64,000 bases of DNA from an uncultured Flavobacteriales bacterium (GTDB taxonomy: Bacteria; Bacteroidota; Bacteroidia; Flavobacteriales_D; Sanyastnellaceae): positions 186,001 through 250,000 of the forward strand of contig CAJQIB010000008.1 in NCBI GenBank assembly GCA_905478325.1. The letters run 5' to 3'. The notes below the pieces were generated by a model. That model was not told the origin of the DNA and did not search any database. It saw nothing but the letters and a program-made list of their open reading frames with translations. The position numbers and the translations under genes were made by a program. This document shows positions 1,656-15,766 of the stretch, piece by piece; positions within the stretch are counted from its first letter, which is position 1; every line of letters starts with the position of its first letter.

Positions 1656-4205
1656 TCAAAGTTCACCCAAATTCGTGCCAATACTGAAATGAAATTGTCC
1701 ACGGGCCATATTCGGTTGCGCAGAGACATCGTCCAAGCGCCATCCATAATCCAAGCCAAGAAGCCCAAACATCGGTAAAAATATTCGCATCCCAACTCCC
1801 GCTGAACGGTAGACCTCGAACGGATTAAAATCTCGAGCATCCGCCCAAGTCTTTCCAGCATCCAAGAAGCCCATCACGTAAATCGTGGCACTCGGATTGG
1901 TCGAGAGTGGATAGCGCAGTTCAGCACCGTATTTAGCGATGACTGGAGCGCCTGTATCCTGATTCGGGCTGGTAAGCGACAAATCATCAAAGCCACGCAA
2001 GTTGACGATTTCACGTCCGTCCAATACGAAACCACTTAAGTAAACTCCACCGAGGTAGAATCGTTCAAACGGCGAAAGCCCCACGGCACGGTTGTATTGA
2101 CCAATCAAGCCAATGCCCATGTGCGTGCGCAGAACCAAAGAACGTGGGTTTTCCCCAGCCGATTGGGTCAACGGCGTATACCATTCAGCCTTGAGTTTCC
2201 ATTTGTGGTACTCGACCCAGCGAAAACGATCTTCATCCGAGAGGTCATCGTAATACGCATCTTCCTTCCCGCGCAATGCAGAATACGGTGGAGTGGCTTT
2301 CATAGAAAGCGTCACATTTGAACCCCACACAGGGAAAATTGGATCCGAAATCGAGTTCCTGCTGATGGTGTAGTTCAGAGCGAGGTTATTGGCCTTTCCA
2401 TTGGCAAAACTGAAGAAGACTCCGTAATCATTGAGCACAAAGTGCTGGTAGCTCAAAGCGACATTCATTGCAAACCAATCATCTGGCTTTTTCAGTCGTT
2501 GACCCAAGCCCACTTGGAGTCCCATGATCTCAAGTGATTGCCGTAACGCGTTCGGCTCTCCTTCTATCTTTTTTGGCTGGCCATTGGTCTGAATCGAACG
2601 CCAGGCTGAGAAACTCAATGCATTGGGCTTTTTACCACCCAACCAAGGTTCAACAAAGGATAGATTGTAGCTCTGGAAATACAAACCATTGGATTGAGCA
2701 CGAATGGATACCCGCTGGCCATCTCCCGTAGGAATCGGTTTCCACGCTCCTTTCTTGAACATGTTGCGCGCACTAAAGTTGGTGAAGCTCAGCCCCAACG
2801 TTCCGACGACACGATTGCCTCCCCAACCCCCGCTCAATTCAATCTGGTCTGAGGGTTTTTCTTCTACCGCATACTCAATGTCCACCGTTCCGTCTTCAGG
2901 ATGCTGAATTGGATTGATTCCGAAGGCCTCTTGATTGAAGTAATTGAGCTGCGCTAGCTCCCTTTGCGTTCGGATGATGTCAGTTCGGCTAAACAAATCT
3001 CCCGGCCGCGTCCGAATCTCACGATAGATGACATGGTCGTTCGTCTTGGTGTTGCCCTTGACAATAATCTTTCCGATTCGGAATTGCTTGCCCTCCATCA
3101 TGCGGACTTCAATATCAATTGTATCGTTCTCAATTCGAGTCTCAATGGGAACTGCCTGGAACGTCAAATACCCATCATCCTGGTACAACGAACTCAGATC
3201 CATCCCCTTTGGGTCCATGTAAACCCGGGTTTCTAATCGTTCCAAATTGTACACCTCACCCGACTTAATGCCTAAAATCGAATCCAACTGGGTGGATCGG
3301 TACTTAGCATTTCCTGTGAACGCGATGCTTCCAAAATGGAACTGATTGCCCTCATTCACACTGAAACGAATCCCCACATTCCCATCCGCCAAACGATAAA
3401 TCGTATCATTTAAAATTCGCGCATTCCGATACCCTTCTTTATTGTACAAGGCAATCAGCTGACTGCGTGCATCCTCCAAGTTCACTTCAACAAATTTGCT
3501 CGACTTAAAAATCCGATACCATTCTTGCTGTTTAAGATCCTTCATGGAACGCAACAGACGCTTCGATTCGATTTTCTCGGTTCCCACCAATACGATCTCT
3601 CCCACTTTAATCTTCGATCCTTTCGCCACTGCAATGTCCAATCGCGCTCCATTTTCAAACGTGGAATCACTGGTCTGGACAATGTCAATTGCAGCATCCC
3701 AATACCCCTTGTCATGGTAGTACTCCCTGAGTCTTTTCCGCGCAGTTGCAATAACATTCTCATTGACCACGCGACCCGTAAGCAATTCTACTTTGCCCTT
3801 GAGTGTCTCTTGCTCAGAACGGCTCACACCCGTGAATGCGTAACGCGTAAGTCGAGGCAATTCCTTCACTTGAATGACCAAAAAGACTTCGCTTCCCCTG
3901 ACCTCCGCAAGCTCAATCGCGATATCATCAAAAAGCTGTTGAACCCAGAGGTTTCGAATCGCTTTCGCGATTTCCTCTCCTGGCAGCGTAATTTCTTGAC
4001 CAATTTGAAGTGCGCTAAACAACTTGACTGCTTGCGCATCGGTGTAATCCGCACCGATCACTGTCAGACCTGCGATGGTGTACTTACTGCCCCATTCAAC
4101 ACCAGAACTGTCCTGCGCATGCAGCTTGGACGCTGAAGTGCCCATCAAGAGTCCTACTCCTAGGAGTAAAACACATCCTATCATCTTCCAATCTATTCTC
4201 ATCAT
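1656..4205 (-). CDS. bamA: Outer-membrane protein assembly factor BamA (Omp85)
   Basis: Central outer-membrane insertase, 849 residues. A signal peptide (about 1-30) leads into a string of POTRA domains (roughly 43-440, five by eye; the last begins around FRIGKIIVKGNT). A C-terminal beta-barrel follows, with the Omp85 loop-6 signature in VNLRGFDD. The last strand reads QFHFSIG and is followed by a six-residue tail ending in leucine, so the usual terminal aromatic residue is absent. The ATG at 4205 overlaps the uppS stop (ATGATGA), suggesting translational coupling. Two Skp-like genes follow at once. Position between uppS and ompH is the classic Bacteroidota arrangement. Confidence 0.96.
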   Translation of the reverse strand: MMRIDWKMIGCVLLLGVGLLMGTSASKLHAQDSSGVEWGSKYTIAGLTVIGADYTDAQAVKLFSALQIGQEITLPGEEIAKAIRNLWVQQLFDDIAIELAEVRGSEVFLVIQVKELPRLTRYAFTGVSRSEQETLKGKVELLTGRVVNENVIATARKRLREYYHDKGYWDAAIDIVQTSDSTFENGARLDIAVAKGSKIKVGEIVLVGTEKIESKRLLRSMKDLKQQEWYRIFKSSKFVEVNLEDARSQLIALYNKEGYRNARILNDTIYRLADGNVGIRFSVNEGNQFHFGSIAFTGNAKYRSTQLDSILGIKSGEVYNLERLETRVYMDPKGMDLSSLYQDDGYLTFQAVPIETRIENDTIDIEVRMMEGKQFRIGKIIVKGNTKTNDHVIYREIRTRPGDLFSRTDIIRTQRELAQLNYFNQEAFGINPIQHPEDGTVDIEYAVEEKPSDQIELSGGWGGNRVVGTLGLSFTNFSARNMFKKGAWKPIPTGDGQRVSIRAQSNGLYFQSYNLSFVEPWLGGKKPNALSFSAWRSIQTNGQPKKIEGEPNALRQSLEIMGLQVGLGQRLKKPDDWFAMNVALSYQHFVLNDYGVFFSFANGKANNLALNYTISRNSISDPIFPVWGSNVTLSMKATPPYSALRGKEDAYYDDLSDEDRFRWVEYHKWKLKAEWYTPLTQSAGENPRSLVLRTHMGIGLIGQYNRAVGLSPFERFYLGGVYLSGFVLDGREIVNLRGFDDLSLTSPNQDTGAPVIAKYGAELRYPLSTNPSATIYVMGFLDAGKTWADARDFNPFEVYRSAGVGMRIFLPMFGLLGLDYGWRLDDVSAQPNMARGQFHFSIGTNLGEL

Positions 4206-4975
4206 CCTTGTTTCGACATCGTGTGATTGGTATCCAATAGCCCTCCAAAACGCCGGTTGCGATTTTGATAATCACGGACTGCATCATAAAAATTCTCTTG
4301 ACCGAAGTCAGGCCACAAAACAGGAGTAAAATGAAATTCGGCGTAGGCAAGTTGCCACAATAAGAAATTCGAAATACGCCTTTCTCCGCTCGTCCGGATC
4401 ATCAACTCTGGATCAGGAATCCCTGACGTCGCGAGATGCTCCTCGATGTGGGAAGCGTCCAAGTCGTCAGGGTTCACCCCTGATTTCATCAATTTCTTTG
4501 TAGCCTCAACAAGCTCCCATTTCGAGCTATAACTAAGCGCGAGCACCAAATCCAACGTATCCAAGTGCTGTGTGCTCTCAATCGACTTATTGATCTGGTC
4601 TTGGCACGCTTCTGGGAGCGTCGATAAATCACCGATTGCCCGTAAACGCACCCCTTTGGACTCCAGGTCCTGAACCTCCTTCACCAAGGTGCTTACCAAC
4701 AAGTCCATCAATGCGTTGACTTCTTCTTCCGGTCGACTCCAATTCTCTGTACTGAATGCGTAAAGTGTCAAATACCGAACGCCGGTGCGCAAAGCAGCCT
4801 CCACTGCGGATCGAACAGAGTTGATTCCATTGATGTGACCAAAGACCCGTTCTTCTCCGCGTTCCTTTGCCCAACGGCCATTGCCATCCATGATGATGGC
4901 AACATGTTTTGGAATCCGCTTGGAATCCAAGTCAATCGATTCACAAAAAACCTGATGATCAGAGGCTGCACTCAT
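4202..4975 (-). CDS. uppS: Isoprenyl transferase (undecaprenyl diphosphate synthase)
   Basis: Condenses isopentenyl units onto farnesyl diphosphate to give the C55 lipid carrier for cell-wall and polysaccharide synthesis, at the cytoplasmic face. The 257 residues are normal for the family. The catalytic motif HVAIIMDGNGRWA is near residue 25, followed by the GH box (FGHINGI), TLYAFSTENWSRP, and the C-terminal RTSGERRISNFLLWQ block with FTPVLWPDF. The start ATG at 4975 overlaps the stop of the DUF6089 gene and its own stop overlaps the bamA start, so three genes are chained by 4-base overlaps. Chain length of the product is assigned by family only. Confidence 0.96.
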   Translation of the reverse strand: MSAASDHQVFCESIDLDSKRIPKHVAIIMDGNGRWAKERGEERVFGHINGINSVRSAVEAALRTGVRYLTLYAFSTENWSRPEEEVNALMDLLVSTLVKEVQDLESKGVRLRAIGDLSTLPEACQDQINKSIESTQHLDTLDLVLALSYSSKWELVEATKKLMKSGVNPDDLDASHIEEHLATSGIPDPELMIRTSGERRISNFLLWQLAYAEFHFTPVLWPDFGQENFYDAVRDYQNRNRRFGGLLDTNHTMSKQG

Positions 4976-5871
4976 GACGGTTGGACCCAGCAGGTCGTCG
5001 GTTTTTTACTGATTCGAAAACTGATTGAAGCGGAGAGAAATCCGTACTTATCTGAACGTCCAGGGTCACCACGTTGCTTTCCTCCCTGATTTGAATCGCC
5101 GCCCAATTGAATCAAACTTTGATCAGCCAACTCCATTGACAACTCTCCCTTTTCTTGTTGCAAGACCAATGCATCCGCATAGCTTCCGCTGACATCATCC
5201 AAAAAGTCAGTCCATGTCTTGCGGACGGCCCAATCAAAACAGATCGCCATAAAGGGCCCAATATTCGCTTTGAAGCCAAAACCAAAAGGCACTGAAAAAC
5301 CCGCTGTGGAATAAGGGTCTAAACCTAGAGATTCACCCCAAGTGGTTCCTTGCCCCTCTGTTCCTAGCGGCTGCAATGGAATCCACAAACCGTCAACAAG
5401 AGCTTCTGGGCTGTGACTGTAAGCCGCTATACCCGTGAACAAGAAAGCCGTAAAACGGTCTCCTGGATTCCCCATCCGATGTTCCAAGTAATTGATCTCT
5501 ATGAGCGCGCTCACCTCACTGATTTCATTTCTGAAGTGCAAGTTTCGATTCTGCTGCCAGGGGTCCGAGCTGTCAGCATCCCATGCTTCGACCTGTCCAC
5601 GAAAAAAATTCGCTCGCATCGAAATACGTCCCGTAAAGTTGTGACGGTAATAGCCGCCGAAACCAGCATTCAACCGTCCACCTAAGTGTTTCCCTGGGTT
5701 GAGGTCCCCCAAATAATATCCCGTGCCCAATGCCAATCCCAACTCTTTGGATTGGTCAAACCGTCGCTGGCCAGCCACTTCAGGAATGACAGCACACAAA
5801 AACACCACGCAACAAAGCAAGGGGAACATCTGGTCGATTTTTGACCGCTTCGTAAGGGGCTGCGTCCGCAT
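4972..5871 (-). CDS. DUF6089-like outer-membrane beta-barrel protein
   Basis: A 299-residue exported protein with a long signal (residues 1-35, hydrophobic MFPLLCCVVFLCAVIPEVAG). The rest is alternating aromatic and glycine-rich strands (LGLALGTGYYLGDLNPG, GGYYRHNFTGRISMRANFFRG), as in the porin-like DUF6089 family usually found immediately before uppS and bamA in Bacteroidota. Function is not established. The conserved place beside the Bam machinery suggests an envelope role, which is inference. It starts after a 106-base gap behind nadK and overlaps uppS by four bases, so it may head its own transcription unit. Confidence 0.8.
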   Translation of the reverse strand: MRTQPLTKRSKIDQMFPLLCCVVFLCAVIPEVAGQRRFDQSKELGLALGTGYYLGDLNPGKHLGGRLNAGFGGYYRHNFTGRISMRANFFRGQVEAWDADSSDPWQQNRNLHFRNEISEVSALIEINYLEHRMGNPGDRFTAFLFTGIAAYSHSPEALVDGLWIPLQPLGTEGQGTTWGESLGLDPYSTAGFSVPFGFGFKANIGPFMAICFDWAVRKTWTDFLDDVSGSYADALVLQQEKGELSMELADQSLIQLGGDSNQGGKQRGDPGRSDKYGFLSASISFRISKKPTTCWVQPS

Positions 5872-5978
5872 GGGTTAAAGCTCGAAAAGCCTCGTTATAA
5901 CGCACGAAAATACGCGGAATTGCGCAAATGAATTGTGAAAAACAGCTAACAATAGCTAGTCACTTTCCCACGCTTGTG

Positions 5979-6857
5979 TTAGCGGTCTCTCGGATCAATG
6001 CCCCAGTGCATTTTTGCCCGGATCGTTCCGAAAAATTCTTGGTGCTCCAAATTGATTAAAACGAAATGAAATGGCGCGGGGTTGATCCGCACTTTTTTAC
6101 CCCCATCGAGGATAAACATGCGTGAATCTAGACTCAACAGAAATTGATTTTCCCTCCCTTCTGCCACCAATTGAAGCTCGCCATCTCGTGGGACAATCAA
6201 CGGGCGGTTGTTGAGATTGTGGGGGGCTACTGGGTTGATGCACAACACATTCGACTCTGGCGTCACCATCGGCCCTCCTGCGCTTAGAGAGTATGCTGTG
6301 GACCCTGTCGGAGTAGCGACAATGAGTCCATCGGCCCAGTAATTGTTGACATACACATCATCGCGATGCACTTCGACTGCCATCATGCTCGACGTGTCCC
6401 GTTTCATAATGGCAACTTCGTTCAACGCGTAAGGGAATGACCCCAGTTCCATGCCCTCCACCTCCACGTGCAGCATGGCTCTTTTTTCATACCACACCCG
6501 CCCCGCTGCCAATGCGTCCATGGCCAAGTCAATCTCCTCAATCCCCACATTGGATAAAAACCCGAGTCGGCCCGTATTCACAGCCAGAACGGGAATTTCA
6601 CTTTCACGGACCCACGTAGCGGCCTCCAAGACCGTACCATCTCCACCAATGGCCACTAAAAAGTCACATCCCTTGAGCTCATGATGCTCCTCAAAACTTC
6701 GAAGTTGATCTGAAACGTTCATTCGATCATCCAACATCCGCATGAAGGCAGCCTCCACCAATGGGTTGGAATCTATCTCTTCGATGCGGCGGAGAATGTG
6801 CTTGACTGCGTCGTCAAATTCCGTTGCAAATGCTTTGCCGAATATTGCAATTTTCAT
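5979..6857 (-). CDS. nadK: NAD kinase
   Basis: Phosphorylates NAD to NADP. The 292 residues fit the family. Motifs are all present: GGDGTVLEAA (phosphate-binding GGDGT) near residue 72, NTGRLGFLSN, the adenine-site aspartate region, TPTGSTAYSLSAGGP, and the C-terminal sugar-binding region around LSLDSRM. The ATG at 6857 gives MKIAIFGKAF, the normal family N-terminus; an upstream TTG at 6866 would add three residues and is less likely. It follows the CBS-domain gene after 15 bases in the same direction. There is no good Shine-Dalgarno sequence, which is normal in this phylum. Confidence 0.96.
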   Translation of the reverse strand: MKIAIFGKAFATEFDDAVKHILRRIEEIDSNPLVEAAFMRMLDDRMNVSDQLRSFEEHHELKGCDFLVAIGGDGTVLEAATWVRESEIPVLAVNTGRLGFLSNVGIEEIDLAMDALAAGRVWYEKRAMLHVEVEGMELGSFPYALNEVAIMKRDTSSMMAVEVHRDDVYVNNYWADGLIVATPTGSTAYSLSAGGPMVTPESNVLCINPVAPHNLNNRPLIVPRDGELQLVAEGRENQFLLSLDSRMFILDGGKKVRINPAPFHFVLINLEHQEFFGTIRAKMHWGIDPRDR

Positions 6858-6872
6858 AGCGTTCAACAGGTC

Positions 6873-7523
6873 TTAGTTGTCCAAATAACGCATAAAAGCC
6901 TCATACCGCTCTCTCATTTCCTCTTCCAAGCCGGGAGCATGGTGAAAGGTTTGGATGGTATACCCAAAGCGCTGGAACGTTGAGATCACACTTTCCACTT
7001 CCTGAGCTTGCAGCTTCAACGTAACAACAACATTGGAAGACGATTCATCTCTCGATGTTGTACATGCTACGACTTTCGAGTCAGCGGACTCAACGAGTCG
7101 CGCAATTTCAGCAATGGACAAATCCATCTCAGGCACTTCCAACACCACGACCGCTCCGGATCCTGCCCAATGGGTGTGCCGCGCTAAAAACCGCAGCACT
7201 GCCTTGGGATCAATGCAGCCCAAGAACTTTCCTTCATGGACAACAGGCAATGCATCCACCTCTGCTTGAACCAATTGGGAAACGACATCATACAAATGCA
7301 CCTGTGGCCCAACGAAAACCGGCCGGCCCTCCAATGCGGCCATCGGCGTTTCTTCGTCCGACTCCATCAGATCAGTCTCGTAGACCAAGCCCGAGAATAT
7401 CTCTCCGTTGACAAGGGGCAACTGGCACACCTTGTACTCATCCATCAAACGGAGCACCCTTCCTACCGAATCTTCCGGCCGAACGGTCGGTAAATCCAAA
7501 GTCATCAATCGCTGTGCGTACAT
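6873..7523 (-). CDS. CBS-pair protein
   Basis: A soluble 216-residue protein. Two CBS motifs sit in residues 1-120 ([49 protein letters not shown]). A C-terminal segment (about 125-195, [28 protein letters not shown]) has the spacing of an ACT-like ligand domain. CBS pairs bind adenine nucleotides, so it is a plausible energy or nucleotide sensor, but no enzyme is attached. It sits directly upstream of nadK and divergent from pdxJ, a neighbourhood common in Bacteroidota. A link to NAD(P) or vitamin B6 metabolism is inference from neighbours only. Confidence 0.82.
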
Positions 7524-7538
7524 GGTTCTTGCGTGGTG

Positions 7539-7546
7539 TATTTTTG
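7539..7546 (+). promoter_or_regulatory. Candidate -7 box (TATTTTTG) for pdxJ
   Basis: An exact match to the Bacteroidota -7 consensus TAnnTTTG in the 74-base divergent gap between the CBS gene and pdxJ. It would place transcription start about 45 bases before the pdxJ ATG. I see no convincing TTTG box at the usual -33 distance, so confidence is limited. Confidence 0.35.
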
Positions 7547-7597
7547 CGACTATCCACGAATGGAATTTACCGGACGTGTTGGAATCGAAAGGTACGG

Positions 7598-8332
7598 ATG
7601 ACTAGACTCAGCGTCAACGTCAATAAAATTGCCACTTTGCGCAACGCCCGCGGAGGCAGTGCCCCGAGTGTTGTAGAAGCCGCGACTCGGCTGCAATCTT
7701 TTGGTGCACAAGGGATTACGATTCACCCAAGACCAGATCAACGCCATATCACAACGGCTGATGTCTCGGATCTCCGCCCGGTTGTTACCACCGAGTTCAA
7801 CATCGAGGGATATCCTTCGGACGCCTTCATTCAGCTCGTTTGTGGCATTCAACCCGAACAGGTTACACTGGTTCCTGATCCTCCTGACGCCTTGACTTCC
7901 AATGCGGGATGGGATGTAATCCGCCACCAATCACGCTTAAAGGAGGTCCTCGCTGTTTTTCGAGAGCACGGCATCCGAACAAGTTTGTTTACTTCCACGG
8001 ATTTAAAACAAATTGAAGCCGCTTCGGGTGTAGGTACCGACCGAATTGAATTATACACCGAGCCCTATGCCTTGGCATACCAGGCGAAAGAACCCGAAGC
8101 AGCATTGCCTTTTTCACGCGCCGCGACCTTTGCCCATGGCATCGGTTTGGGAGTGAATGCTGGACACGATTTGAATTTGCACAACTTGAGACATTTTTCA
8201 GAACATGTGCCCTACCTCGAAGAAGTCAGTATCGGCCATGCCCTTATCAGCGATGCACTGTATTTGGGGTTGGAGAAAGCCGTTGCTGCTTATTTGGCGT
8301 GCTTGACATTGGACCCCCTTCAAAAGCCATGA
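7598..8332 (+). CDS. pdxJ: Pyridoxine 5'-phosphate synthase
   Basis: Closes the pyridoxine ring from 1-deoxyxylulose 5-phosphate and 3-amino-1-hydroxyacetone phosphate, the last step of de novo vitamin B6 synthesis. The 244 residues fit the family, starting [18 protein letters not shown]. The active-site blocks [16 protein letters not shown] and EFNIEGYP, and the C-terminal [11 protein letters not shown] ... VSIGHALIS (phosphate-binding end of the TIM barrel), are all present. The frame is open upstream to 7514, but homology begins at the ATG 7598. The stop overlaps the next gene's ATG (ATGA). Its substrate is made by dxs, which is also in this window. Confidence 0.96.
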
Positions 8333-10951: not shown

Positions 10952-11785
10952 ATGGGCCAACATCGCATTCTCGTCCCAATGGACTTCACTCCGGTTAGCG
11001 ACATTGCATTGGAGCACGCCTTTGTTGTCGGCAAAGCGTTCAATAGCGAAATCTTGTTGCTGCACATCATTGCAAACAAAAAGGAAATGCCGGAGGCACG
11101 CGAGCGGATGTCCGCCCTGTTGGAACTTCATTCCGCAACCTACCCGCACACGTTGCAAACTGCGATTCGAATTGGCAGCATCTTTGAAGACATTGACGAC
11201 GTGGCGGTAGAGCAAGACGCTACCCTGGTCATCATGGGGACGCACGGCTTGAAAGGCATGCAGTTTCTAACTGGAGGGCGTGCATTGCGCATTGTCACAA
11301 ACAGCTCCACTCCGTTTATCATAACACAAGAGCGGACCATCAAAGAGAATGGGTATGACGACATCGTTGTTCCGTTGGATTTACACCAGGACACGAAGCA
11401 GAAGTTATCCATTGCTGCAGAAATGGCCCAGTATTTTGAAGGACGAGTCCACATTATCAGTCCTGCTGAATCTGACGAGTTTTTGAAAAATCAACTTCTC
11501 AGGAACATCGAATACGCCAAAGAATATTTCACCGAGAAGGGAGTTGACTATACCGTGAAAATTTCACAGCATAGCTCCAGCGCTTTCGTGAAAGACGTCA
11601 TTCGTTTTGCAGCTTCAATTGAAGCCGATTTGATCAGCATCATGAATCTGCATGAGAAGAGCCTGATGGGCATCCTTGGGCACAGCTATGAGCAGCAAAT
11701 CGTCACAAACGAAGCGCAGATTCCCGTGTTGGTCATCAACCCCATCGCGACACGCGTCATCAGAGGGTCTGTTTTCTCACGCTAG
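10952..11785 (+). CDS. Tandem universal stress protein
   Basis: A cytoplasmic 277-residue protein of two Usp domains. The first (1-130) begins HRILVPMDFTPVSDIALEHA and carries MGTHGLKGMQFLTGGRA, a nucleotide-binding-type loop. The second (about 145-275) begins DDIVVPLDLHQDTKQK and ends with a more degenerate HEKSLMGILGHSYEQQIV followed by IPVLVINP. Tandem Usp proteins of this type are common in Bacteroidota and respond to energy or stress state; the target is not predictable. The gene is divergent from the ClC-CBS gene and convergent with the SpoIIE phosphatase gene, 13 bases away. Confidence 0.9.
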   Translation: MGQHRILVPMDFTPVSDIALEHAFVVGKAFNSEILLLHIIANKKEMPEARERMSALLELHSATYPHTLQTAIRIGSIFEDIDDVAVEQDATLVIMGTHGLKGMQFLTGGRALRIVTNSSTPFIITQERTIKENGYDDIVVPLDLHQDTKQKLSIAAEMAQYFEGRVHIISPAESDEFLKNQLLRNIEYAKEYFTEKGVDYTVKISQHSSSAFVKDVIRFAASIEADLISIMNLHEKSLMGILGHSYEQQIVTNEAQIPVLVINPIATRVIRGSVFSR

Positions 11786-11798
11786 ACTTCGTTTGCCT

Positions 11799-13622
11799 TC
11801 AGACGCGGACACCGATGACAAGAACATCGTCTACCTGCTCTTCTGATCCGCGCCACTCGTCGAATGACTTCATCAATGCTTGCTCCATTTCAAGGGCAGG
11901 CAAAGAGGCAATTTGAACCAGCAATTCACGGAACCGTTTCCGCATGAATTTCTTGCCATTCACTCCACCAAATTGATCCGCAAATCCATCGGTCGCTGCG
12001 AAAACCACATCGCCCGAGACCAACGGAAGGGTTTGCATCGTGTACGATTTGGTACCAGGCTCAAATGAGGCAATGGCCATCTTGTCAGGTTTGAGCTCTT
12101 GCAACATGCCCTTGCGCACCAAGTACAATGGGCAATTCGCCCCACTGTATTGCAATTCCATGCGCTCTCGGTCGATACAAACCATTGCCAGGTCCATGCC
12201 GTCCTGCATCGTCACTCCTTGCGCGCTTTGTTCTCCAAATCCGTCCGGGTGAAGCAATTCGCAAGACGCTCGATTCAATTGATCCAGCACCTTGTCGGGT
12301 TGGGTATACACCTTGGTCACGTGCTCAAGGGCATGGTGACCAATCAAACTCATGAATGCCCCAGGAACACCATGTCCTGTGCAGTCCACAGCAGCAAACA
12401 TGCACGCGGGGCCGACCTTATGAAACCAATAAAAATCCCCAGAGACCACATCGCGAGGACGGTAAAAAACAGCCGCTGTTTCAAAAACCATGGAACGGTC
12501 TCGCTTCGACGGTAAAATGGCCTGCTGAATCCGCTCCGCATAGTTGATGCTGTCTCTAAGGTCACCATACAACGCCTCAATCCGAGCCTTTTGCTCTTGA
12601 ACTTCAGCGGTACGGCTTCGGACTTTCCCCTCCAGTTCCAACTCATTCGACTCCAAGTCATCGCGCATTTTCACAATCGCATGACCCAAAGCATCCTCTG
12701 GACTCAACGGTATGTATGGGGCTGAAAATCGCCCGGCTCCAACTTCCAATGAAAATGCTCTCGTTCGATCCAGACCACTCGCCAGTCGATTCACAGCGCT
12801 CGCCATTTCACCTATTTCATCCGACGAGACAGGAACTTCTTGCTCGAGAGGAACCCCGCGCCCCAAGTAAAGCAGTGCTTTTTTCAGATCCTGAATAGGC
12901 CCAACAATCGAGCGTGTTACTGCCCAGGCTATCAAAATTCCCAAGATTAAAACACCCAACGCAACTTGCCCCGCATAAAACTGCAGTTGATCACCAAGCT
13001 CTTCCATTCGCCCGGTTGATTCTGTCAATGCATCGGTTTGCGCTTCAGAAAGAGCATCCATCTGTGAGCGGATGGATTCCGTAAATCTTGGAATGCTCGA
13101 TCCGTCCAAAGCATAGTATTCCGCATCCATACGAACCAAGGGATCATCATAGGATTGAAAGTCTGGAAGCAGGCGTATGATTTCTCCGTAGGCTAAGAAC
13201 AGGTGCTCCACATCACGCTCAAGAGAATCGAATCCCAATTGAAGCGAAGAGGGCCAAAAAGGAACCACATGTCTGAGCGTTGCCAGTTGACGTGGCACCT
13301 CCGTTTGCATCAAATTTCTCAAGGATTCTTTTTCAGGACTCGCGGCTCCCGACTGCACCGACAACCAGTAGTTGATGAACACCCGTGTTTCCGCAATGGA
13401 ACGGTCCAAGTCTTCCAACGAACGGATGCTCGGAGCCAAGACTCCATCGATGCGCTGACTCAACTGACGACTCTCCTGCAAGGTGTTCCGCGTCAGCAAA
13501 ACCAGCATACCCACCGCTATACCAAATAAGCCAAAGCCAAGCGAAATACGCCAGCCTATACCCCATTTAAAATTTTGACGGACCTCCTTTTGAGGAGTGT
13601 CCGAGCGACCGGTGCGAATCAT
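11799..13622 (-). CDS. Membrane HAMP-PP2C (SpoIIE-type) serine/threonine phosphatase
   Basis: A 607-residue inner-membrane signalling phosphatase. TM1 is at about 26-44, a helical extracytoplasmic sensor region at 45-217, TM2 at about 218-237 and a HAMP linker at 237-290. A coiled coil (about 325-380, ending in NYAERIQQAILP) leads into the PP2C/SpoIIE domain (385-607). Metal-binding motifs are intact: DVVSGDFYW, VDCTGHGVPGAFMS, ATDGFADQFGG and the final QVDDVLVIGVRV. It should dephosphorylate a protein, typically an anti-sigma antagonist, under control of its outer domain. It is third in a cassette after a YfiR-like and a TPR gene, 42 bases behind the latter. The partner protein is not in the window. 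Confidence 0.92.
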   Translation of the reverse strand: MIRTGRSDTPQKEVRQNFKWGIGWRISLGFGLFGIAVGMLVLLTRNTLQESRQLSQRIDGVLAPSIRSLEDLDRSIAETRVFINYWLSVQSGAASPEKESLRNLMQTEVPRQLATLRHVVPFWPSSLQLGFDSLERDVEHLFLAYGEIIRLLPDFQSYDDPLVRMDAEYYALDGSSIPRFTESIRSQMDALSEAQTDALTESTGRMEELGDQLQFYAGQVALGVLILGILIAWAVTRSIVGPIQDLKKALLYLGRGVPLEQEVPVSSDEIGEMASAVNRLASGLDRTRAFSLEVGAGRFSAPYIPLSPEDALGHAIVKMRDDLESNELELEGKVRSRTAEVQEQKARIEALYGDLRDSINYAERIQQAILPSKRDRSMVFETAAVFYRPRDVVSGDFYWFHKVGPACMFAAVDCTGHGVPGAFMSLIGHHALEHVTKVYTQPDKVLDQLNRASCELLHPDGFGEQSAQGVTMQDGMDLAMVCIDRERMELQYSGANCPLYLVRKGMLQELKPDKMAIASFEPGTKSYTMQTLPLVSGDVVFAATDGFADQFGGVNGKKFMRKRFRELLVQIASLPALEMEQALMKSFDEWRGSEEQVDDVLVIGVRV

Positions 13623-13664
13623 GCAGGCAATTTAACGCGATAAGGCCATCAGACCATCCATTAC

Positions 13665-14597
13665 TCACCGCCCTTTTCCATTCAGTCCATCGAGCATTCT
13701 TCGATACCGTTCTGATGCCTCGGGTTGATTCAAGGCATAGTGGATGGTCATCAAACCCTTCAAGGTTTCAAAGCGCTCTGGCTTCAATTTGTGCGCGGAC
13801 TCCATCGGAGATAGCGCCTGTTCAAATAAAGCGACACACGTGTCTTGAATTTCCATGAGTTCAAACATGGATGTTTCATGGTCAATTCTCTTCAATTGTC
13901 GAACACCCTGATTGTATTGGGTAATCGCCAGGTTGTACAAGCCAGAATAATTTCCTGGAGTCAACTTCAAAGCCGCCTCGTAGTGGCTCACAGAACGATC
14001 AAACAACGTCTGCTCCTCTTCCAATTGAGCCCCTTCTAATCCGTTAATCAACTGGCCGTTTGCCAGGCCCAGGTAGCGATAAACATCGGCTTTTTGGACG
14101 CTCACATCCGCGGTTGGATCCATGGTTTTGACCAAAGCTTCATACCGTCCAAATAACGCCAAGACCTCCCCGTCTGAATCCATAGTAAACCCATCCACCC
14201 GATCAATGGCATCCAATAAGTAGCTCCGGGTTAGAAAATCCAACGCGGCTTTAATGGAAGTGGCGTCATCGCGAGACGGTCCCAACTCCCAAGCTCTTTG
14301 CAAACTCGATACAGCCTCCAAACGAAATGGACTGTCCGCATCATTCCGCTCCGTCGTTTTGTACAATTCCTTCTGGATAAAGCCCAACACATACCACGAA
14401 TGCGCATCGGACTGCAGCGCGGTCGTTGTCATTTGCGGAAGTAAAGTCTGCAAGGCTTCATCCCAATCTCCTGCTTGACCGAAGGCCATGGCACGCTCTA
14501 CAACAGCCTGACCAAAGGATGCTTGCGTGATTCCCAAAGACAGCACAAAGACGAGGGCCCATCGACCACATTGCACTTGGAACATTCCTTGTTTCAT
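13665..14597 (-). CDS. Exported TPR-repeat protein
   Basis: A 310-residue predicted periplasmic or membrane-anchored protein. A signal peptide (about 1-29, WALVFVLSLGITQASFGQ) is followed by tetratricopeptide-like helices, e.g. AMAFGQAGDWDEALQTLLP and HYEAALKLTPGNYSGLYNLAITQYNQG. I start it at ATG 14597, which forms an ATGA overlap with the yfiR-like stop; an ATG at 14618 would add seven residues and overlap more. No enzyme domain is visible. Lying between a periplasmic YfiR-like gene and a membrane phosphatase gene, it could be an adaptor in that signalling path. This is inference. Confidence 0.75.
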   Translation of the reverse strand: MKQGMFQVQCGRWALVFVLSLGITQASFGQAVVERAMAFGQAGDWDEALQTLLPQMTTTALQSDAHSWYVLGFIQKELYKTTERNDADSPFRLEAVSSLQRAWELGPSRDDATSIKAALDFLTRSYLLDAIDRVDGFTMDSDGEVLALFGRYEALVKTMDPTADVSVQKADVYRYLGLANGQLINGLEGAQLEEEQTLFDRSVSHYEAALKLTPGNYSGLYNLAITQYNQGVRQLKRIDHETSMFELMEIQDTCVALFEQALSPMESAHKLKPERFETLKGLMTIHYALNQPEASERYRRMLDGLNGKGR

Positions 14598-15193
14598 TTG
14601 CCTGAATTTACTGCCCATGAAAGTATTCGACTACCAATGAGCACCCCTTTTTTGGAAGCCTCTTTTGCATTGATTTCATACCGCAAACGACGATCTACGG
14701 CGACAAAATTGATCAAAGAACCGCGCTCCAGTGCTGACTCCGTATCCGTCACCAACAAGACAGGCTGGCCCTTCCATTGCGACGCCAATTCCTCCAACTC
14801 TGCACCCGCAGATTCAGAATAAATCAAATGGAAAAAGCCCTCTTCTTGCATGTCGTTGTCCGTGTCAAACGACACAATCTCCAACGGCTGAACACCGATT
14901 GATTTCAGCGCATACTTGTCAATCAACTCTTGAAATAGCCGTTCATTTCCAACGACCGCCATTCGAAACGGACCCGTTTTTGTCTCAGCGGGCCATTCAT
15001 TCGAAGCAGAAAAGTGGAACAAAAAGTTGGCCTTCATAATGGCCTGCGTATCTGTATTGTCCAACTTATCTCCTTGGATTAAAGGACCTGCAGCCCATGC
15101 TAGCGCAGCCAAGGCCACCAGAGGAAACCACAGCCAACTCAGGCGAACTTTCGTCCGTTTACTCAACAATGCAGATGGAATTTCGAAGCGCAT
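14594..15193 (-). CDS. YfiR-like (DUF4154) protein
   Basis: A 199-residue protein with one N-terminal hydrophobic signal or anchor (about 20-36, FPLVALAALAWAAG) and a periplasmic DUF4154 domain. Typical YfiR blocks are present: IMKANFLFHFSASNEWP, GPFRMAVVGNERLFQEL, FHLIYSESAGAELEEL, PVLLVTDTESALERGSLINFV and the end DRRLRYEINAKEASKKGVLIGSRIL. In Pseudomonas, YfiR is a periplasmic repressor of the membrane diguanylate cyclase YfiN. Here the co-transcribed membrane partner is a PP2C phosphatase instead. It starts 15 bases behind the ferritin gene and overlaps the TPR gene by four bases. Confidence 0.85.
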   Translation of the reverse strand: MRFEIPSALLSKRTKVRLSWLWFPLVALAALAWAAGPLIQGDKLDNTDTQAIMKANFLFHFSASNEWPAETKTGPFRMAVVGNERLFQELIDKYALKSIGVQPLEIVSFDTDNDMQEEGFFHLIYSESAGAELEELASQWKGQPVLLVTDTESALERGSLINFVAVDRRLRYEINAKEASKKGVLIGSRILSWAVNSGK

Positions 15194-15208: not shown

Positions 15209-15712
15209 TCAGGCGTTTGCAGATCCCGCCAAACTCAAAATATCCCGATCGAAGAGGTACAAGGCACCTCGATCACCCCCCACCAAAGCCAGTTTATCCA
15301 AAATCTTCCGCGCCATCGCCTCCTCTTCAATTTGTTCAGCCACGTACCACTGCATGAAATTATGTGTGGTGTAATCCTTCAGTGTTAAGCATTCATCCAC
15401 AACAGAATTGATGCTCGCAGTCACGGTTGTTTCGTGCTCCAAGATGGATTGAAAAATCGCATCCAATCCAGGATATTCCACTGCGGGCGCTGTAAGCGGA
15501 GGCACGGTAGCAACTCCACCACGCTCATTGACAAAGCGCATGAGCTTGAGCATGTGCATGCGCTCCTCTTCAGCATGCTCATACAAGAAAGCTGCAGTTC
15601 CATCATATCCGCTTGTCTCGGCCCAAACAGCCATGGCCAAGTAGGTATGGGAGCTTTGCGCTTCCAACGTAATCTGTTTGTTCAGGGCTAAGGCAATTTG
15701 TTCGTGCAGCAT
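15209..15712 (-). CDS. ftnA: Non-haem ferritin
   Basis: Iron-storage ferritin forming 24-subunit cages, 167 residues from ATG 15712; an upstream in-frame TTG at 15733 is less likely because family homology begins at MLHEQIALALNKQI. Ferroxidase-centre positions are visible: glutamate in LEAQSSHTYLAMA, the E-E-x-x-H cluster in HAEEERMHM, and the later EQIEEEA. So it is the catalytic FtnA type rather than bacterioferritin. It lies 54 bases after gbsR and 15 before the yfiR-like gene, all on one strand. It could therefore belong to either unit. No Fur-type box was recognised. Confidence 0.93.
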   Translation of the reverse strand: MLHEQIALALNKQITLEAQSSHTYLAMAVWAETSGYDGTAAFLYEHAEEERMHMLKLMRFVNERGGVATVPPLTAPAVEYPGLDAIFQSILEHETTVTASINSVVDECLTLKDYTTHNFMQWYVAEQIEEEAMARKILDKLALVGGDRGALYLFDRDILSLAGSANA

Positions 15713-15766
15713 ATCAGGACATTTTGAGACCAAGTTAAGGGTTCAACGATTTCGCTGCACACCTTT

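Follow-up and report, generated by a model that had tools for sequence, protein, structure and literature searches.

We analysed a 64,000-nucleotide stretch of DNA (the window) from the genome of an uncultured Flavobacteriales bacterium (Sanyastnellaceae; GCA_905478325.1, contig CAJQIB010000008.1, 186,001-250,000). Three consecutive minus-strand genes at positions 11799-15193 encode a YfiR-like protein of the DUF4154 family, a tetratricopeptide repeat (TPR) protein and a membrane phosphatase. An earlier note on this DNA had described them as a cassette, and all three open reading frames (ORFs) were confirmed at these coordinates. We found that this signalling unit is real and widely conserved, and that the link of DUF4154 to this type of phosphatase is well supported.

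The three genes and their products

The YfiR-like protein (199 residues; 14594..15193, minus strand) is encoded by the only DUF4154 gene in the genome and matched PF13689 with 96.3 bits against a curated cut-off of 24.9. With its AlphaFold model (predicted local distance difference test, pLDDT, 88), Foldseek ranks 1-15 were all YfiR (best E 6.3e-7), and a VIA fold comparison with YfiR gave Z 16.1 and a root-mean-square deviation of 2.7 over 144 residues. YfiR was also found by sequence using a profile (E 1.4e-5). The Pfam and fold matches bear out the identification made in the earlier note. The NCBIfam YfiR equivalog cut-off was not reached (24.1 vs 85), and the closest NCBIfam model was YfiR_like_TOL0243 (96.7 vs a cut-off of 125). 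The fold (approximately residues 45-196) is preceded by a hydrophobic N-terminus (approximately residues 18-36), which by hydropathy is found in 42 of 43 such proteins, window included, none of them with a lipobox-like motif; the protein is thus predicted to be exported to the periplasm.

Two residues of Pseudomonas aeruginosa YfiR that are reported to be tied to YfiN binding, F151 and E163 (PMC4887326, PMC4655355), correspond to conserved positions I161 and E173 of the window protein. Across 43 aligned rows including the window, the first is I, L or V in all and the second is E in 35. As in the YfiBNR system of P. aeruginosa, a periplasmic DUF4154 protein with the YfiR fold stands beside a membrane enzyme with two helices and a HAMP domain. 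The mature window protein differs from YfiR in having zero cysteines, and so neither of YfiR's two conserved cysteine pairs; among the 43 rows there were 0 cysteines in 16, 1 in 17, 2 in 8 and 3 in 2. Redox sensing through YfiR-type cysteine pairs was rejected, as the cysteines are missing.

The TPR protein (317 residues as listed; 13665..14618, minus strand) was recognised by Pfam just above the cut-offs (TPR-S 29.8 vs 27.6; TPR_19 27 vs 25). Hydropathy places a hydrophobic N-terminus on this protein in 43/43 triplets, window included, and its topology is that predicted for an exported protein. The listed start at 14618 places 25 bases of the gene inside the DUF4154 gene. From the sequence, the likelier true start is an internal ATG at 14597, which would share the four bases ATGA with the end of the DUF4154 gene, a common form of overlap. 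The coupling described in the earlier note was confirmed as this overlap of the two genes. The phosphatase gene follows after 42 bases.

The phosphatase (607 residues; 11799..13622, minus strand) is predicted to consist of transmembrane helix 1 (TM1), a helical outer sensor, TM2, a HAMP domain, a linker helix and a PP2C domain. The membrane helices were placed by hydropathy at residues 26-44 and 217-235, and both are present in 43/43 phosphatases. The HAMP domain (residues 235-284; 12771..12920, minus strand) matched PF00672 with 28.3 bits vs 25 (E 2.2e-6). Between the helices lies the outer sensor (residues 45-216; 12975..13490, minus strand), in which W86, W123 and Y158 are invariant or nearly so across 26 aligned relatives. 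The AlphaFold model (pLDDT 84; predicted template modelling score 0.45) is all-helical in its outer part, suggesting a helical bundle unlike the PAS/CHASE8-type domain of YfiN. Pfam found no CHASE8 or PAS sensor in the cassette phosphatase, and a YfiN-like CHASE8 sensor was rejected; CHASE8 occurs in DUF4154-linked kinases. The YfiN-like layout claimed in the earlier note thus stands for the topology and falls for the sensor, and the output also differs, being PP2C here and GGDEF in YfiN.

The PP2C catalytic domain (residues 408-607; 11802..12401, minus strand) matched the Pfam SpoIIE/PP2C family with 73.9 bits vs 25. Residues D396, D413, D545, D598 and D599 are invariant in 42 rows including the window, and a conserved GD motif (residues 395-396) lies just ahead of the domain. 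When the domain was searched against all PDB sequences with phmmer at E 1e-3, SiaA (6k4e) was the sole match (E 3.4e-39), with no sequence match to the RsbU, RssB or SpoIIE structures. The top fold match of the model was again the SiaA PP2C domain 6k4e (33% identity, E 2.6e-18); RsbU, RssB and SpoIIE did match by fold, ranked below SiaA. The NCBIfam SiaA model scored 223.9 bits, aligning to residues 311-607 only and not reaching the full-length equivalog cut-off of 700. By fold, sequence and NCBIfam, the cassette PP2C is SiaA-type and not RsbU/SpoIIE-type. The SpoIIE-family output of the earlier note is therefore kept and its type revised.

Linkage of DUF4154 to the phosphatase

PF13689 was matched in 153/395 genomes of the class and 125/199 genomes of the order. 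An alignment of sensor and HAMP (A1) found 123/199 order genomes at E 1e-10, of which the 120 with stronger matches were retained. Both DUF4154 and sensor were present in 115 of the 199 order genomes, DUF4154 alone in 10, the sensor alone in 5 and neither in 69. The sensor lay within 4 kb downstream of DUF4154 on the same strand in 113/125 DUF4154 genomes, with a median gap of 956 bases, which is space for the TPR gene. Two non-adjacent cases (G442 and G552; L and G numbers are our labels for loci and genomes) have DUF4154 and the sensor on separate contigs. In four of the sensor-alone genomes (G485, G508, G524, G556) the phosphatase gene lies close to the end of a contig or right at it; the fifth (G399) gave no PP2C by the models used.

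At the level of genes, we fetched 80 loci from genomes with a DUF4154 match, covering 41 families in a non-random sample that leans to strong matches. Using an ORF caller and models, DUF4154, TPR and PP2C were found in this order at 42 of the 80, from 15 families of the class. The remaining loci comprised fusions in 4 and 32 DUF4154 places with other or incomplete neighbours; at L082, L083, L091 and L146 DUF4154 was missed by the ORF caller or model, and these were excluded from the cassette count. A survey of co-occurrence, the check suggested in the earlier note, thus found the linkage retained. At one locus (L078:7953-9428, genus g201) the phosphatase has 491 residues and no HAMP match, with DUF4154 and TPR-like neighbours kept. 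G514 carries two full-length phosphatase copies, on C9 and C32, with a DUF4154 match near the C9 copy only.

Natural fusions give the clearest indication that phosphatases of this type can have DUF4154 as an input domain. DUF4154 and SpoIIE form one polypeptide at L106, L110, L123 and L147, where hydropathy shows a single strong membrane helix separating the two, and five further genomes in the genus of L110 (G486, G504, G507, G510, G522) carry fusion ORFs of 598-625 residues, making nine genomes in total. Six of the 10 DUF4154-alone order genomes carry such a fusion. The predicted layout is DUF4154 outside, a long coiled coil, the helix, and PP2C inside. We regard the fusions as strong evidence that DUF4154 can serve as input for this phosphatase. 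Together with the conserved linkage and the YfiR fold, they uphold the proposal that YfiR-type control has been joined to PP2C. The L106 locus (2260-8155) holds three consecutive PP2C genes by model, of which two, one TPR-like-fronted, precede the fusion; the TPR-like-fronted protein directly before it is a SiaA-type PP2C (182.7 bits).

The sensor has a distribution of its own. Its nearest named relatives are from metagenome assemblies of Flavobacteriales (69% identity) and Crocinitomicaceae (64%), and every one of 30 long sensor matches (L180-L209) is named as Bacteroidota. Seventeen of the 30 are PP2C-type, with DUF4154 upstream in 12; of the other five, three lie at the end of a contig, unlike L185 and L187. 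Among the 13 relatives without PP2C, seven adjoin DUF4154 and six do not; all ten that were scanned (L193, L195, L196, L203-L209) contained GAF, some with PAS in addition, and no enzyme domain. The pair of DUF4154 and helical sensor therefore appears to be a portable input, seen with GAF-PAS outputs too. A phylum-wide search with the sensor alignment, in a sample drawn otherwise than the order sample, gave 11/395 genomes at E 1e-20; a known cassette phosphatase was among these matches only in the window genome and G062, and several matches cover the HAMP-linker alone.

DUF4154 was also found with kinases. Single ORFs fuse it to a histidine kinase at L099:6818-8653 and L113:5435-7246. At L103, L108 and L116 its neighbour is the gene of a CHASE8-HAMP histidine kinase, and upstream there is a gene for a TonB-type receptor, recognised in L103 and L116 by Pfam and in L108 by sequence cluster. 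These kinase systems resemble the cassette in joining DUF4154 to a swapped output domain, and differ from it in the kinase output, the CHASE8 sensor and the receptor gene in place of TPR.

Several neighbouring genes recur. On the minus strand the cassette is preceded by a ferritin gene (15209..15733; PF00210, E 1.1e-38), giving the order ferritin, DUF4154, TPR, phosphatase, with the ferritin stop 15 bases ahead of the DUF4154 start. In 20/42 cassettes, from six families, the gene immediately upstream and in the same orientation encodes ferritin (gaps of 6-452 bases). It is perhaps co-transcribed with the cassette; a shared promoter or a link to iron or oxidative stress is possible. A universal stress protein gene (10952..11785, plus strand; PF00582, E 3.9e-22) converges on the cassette and is a conserved neighbour, at position +3 after DUF4154 on the opposite strand in 15 loci. 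A gene for a large protein follows the phosphatase in six loci (L109:9414-13298, and the same cluster in L096, L111, L112, L114 and L115); the L109 protein, the one scanned, has a sensor propeller, a nucleotide cyclase and an HD domain, so cyclic AMP may have a connection with the unit in these loci.

The candidate substrate

The window genome holds one SiaC gene, directly after a SiaB-like gene. SiaC scored 125.8 bits vs 24.5 and SiaB (DUF6272) 63 vs the Pfam cut-off of 26.6. In an alignment to the P. aeruginosa protein, T68 of SiaC is in register with the NTSS site; in P. aeruginosa, Thr68 is reported to be phosphorylated by SiaB and dephosphorylated by SiaA (PMC7647112, PMC7278518). The genome has exactly two SpoIIE proteins, and the cassette PP2C is the sole SiaA-like one. 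Since the PP2C is SiaA-type, is the only such phosphatase in the genome and is accompanied by SiaB and SiaC with T68, SiaC is a likelier substrate than an anti-sigma antagonist, the probable substrate in the earlier note. SiaC was matched in 172/199 order genomes: 118/120 of the sensor-positive ones, 54/79 of the others and 6/6 fusion genomes.

The likeness to the P. aeruginosa SiaABC(D) system extends to the two membrane helices and HAMP domain of the phosphatase, with SiaA as the closest solved relative of the PP2C. The systems differ in that the genes here are not in one operon, DUF4154 and TPR proteins are added, the sensor does not align to that of SiaA (NCBIfam), and there is no GGDEF partner equivalent to the diguanylate cyclase SiaD. 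GGDEF was absent from the window genome and matched in 7/199 order genomes, 4 of them above cut-off. The output of the cassette is therefore not cyclic di-GMP (c-di-GMP), and SiaC, should it be the substrate, must here have a target that is not a GGDEF enzyme.

Proposed mechanism and alternatives

In our best explanation, the three genes would make up one envelope-sensing unit acting on SiaC. In the periplasm, the YfiR-like and TPR proteins would influence the outer helical sensor, and the phosphatase would relay the change to PP2C by way of TM2, HAMP and the linker helix. By analogy to YfiR-YfiN, the YfiR-like protein is expected to repress, holding the phosphatase off. The TPR protein may take the place of YfiB, as a partner freeing or holding the YfiR-like protein; YfiB itself, an OmpA-like outer-membrane lipoprotein, was not found among the seven locus proteins scanned, the rest of the genome not being searched. 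The most likely substrate would be SiaC carrying a phosphate on Thr68, and the kinase working against the phosphatase would be SiaB. Release of the phosphatase would lead to dephosphorylation of SiaC. As the genome has no diguanylate cyclase, SiaC in this state would bind some other target. We infer the binding between the parts (DUF4154 to sensor), the substrate, the sign of control, the role of the TPR protein and the final target. Taken as a whole, with the YfiR-like protein holding the phosphatase off, we consider this explanation slightly on the probable side.

A number of observations weigh against it. The linkage and co-occurrence counts take no account of shared ancestry, and L185 and L187 have TPR-PP2C without DUF4154 although their contigs go on. 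In distance trees DUF4154 correlated no more strongly with the sensor (partial 0.32) than with the catalytic domain (partial 0.31), and this mirror-tree test of DUF4154-sensor pairing was uninformative. SiaB is below the NCBIfam subfamily cut-off (65 vs 85), though above that of Pfam, and SiaB-SiaC are on contig C22 and the cassette on C8. G420 and G457 have the sensor without a SiaC match. Finally, SiaA-like PP2Cs make up a wide class in these bacteria, as the L106 protein illustrates, and the SiaC co-occurrence is not cassette-specific.

The same parts could work with the opposite sign, the YfiR-like protein being an activating co-receptor, perhaps ligand-bound, and the TPR protein a second input and not a YfiB substitute. 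This would agree with the fusions, in which DUF4154 occupies the position of a ligand-binding input, with the match of the DUF4154 model to substrate-binding folds, with the weak binding of vitamin B6 and L-tryptophan to YfiR reported in PMC4887326, and with the TPR-like-fronted PP2C adjoining the fusion at L106. YfiR, however, is described as a repressor in the studied YfiBNR system (PMC3375315), and we regard an activating role as unlikely.

A different substrate was also considered, a STAS protein of the SpoIIAA/RsbV kind, whose dephosphorylation would free a sigma factor or another target of an RsbW-like kinase. The cassette shares the SpoIIE-type PP2C family with RsbU/SpoIIE partner switches, and the search for SpoIIAA/SpoIIAB-type partners suggested in the earlier note did find them: the window genome encodes a single standalone STAS protein, which carries a DSSG site, and a single standalone RsbW-like kinase, families that were each matched in 17/17 genomes searched. 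However, the cassette PP2C is nearest SiaA in sequence and fold, and the other SpoIIE protein of the genome suits the STAS protein better. That protein scored 41.9 bits with the NCBIfam SiaA model, is nearer Rv1364c and RssB in sequence and is RsbU/RssB-type. A STAS substrate for the cassette phosphatase is accordingly improbable. That the genes lie together solely because their order was inherited, with the YfiR-like and TPR proteins serving elsewhere in the envelope and the phosphatase sensing alone, would suit L185 and L187, the 6/13 GAF-type relatives without DUF4154 and the weak tree correlation, but is very doubtful given linkage in 113 genomes, cassettes in 15 families and fusions in nine genomes.

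YfiR-YfiN was called modular by Malone et al. 2012, who noted outputs of the GGDEF-EAL, HPT and histidine kinase types (PMC3375315); the words SpoIIE, PP2C and Bacteroidetes are absent from the main text of that paper. A literature search combining YfiR or DUF4154 with SpoIIE/PP2C, Flavobacterium or SiaA, in which most subscription journals were not covered, did not find the unit described; its parts are known and the combination was not found. YfiR and SiaA are presented in the cited Pseudomonas work as biofilm controls via c-di-GMP, and the cassette of these marine Bacteroidota apparently brings together two signalling parts that control biofilms in Pseudomonas as separate systems. We propose tentatively, as a possibility a little short of probable, that in Bacteroidota a YfiR-type controller has been joined to the SiaA-SiaB-SiaC threonine-phosphate switch, which would replace c-di-GMP, the phosphatase reading the envelope via two exported proteins and SiaC passing the signal to a non-GGDEF target. 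If this is true, neither the YfiR nor the SiaA module is tied to c-di-GMP, and the role of SiaC without a cyclase could be tested in a genome where each part is present once. A widespread operon, in an order with almost no GGDEF genes, would also gain a likely function.

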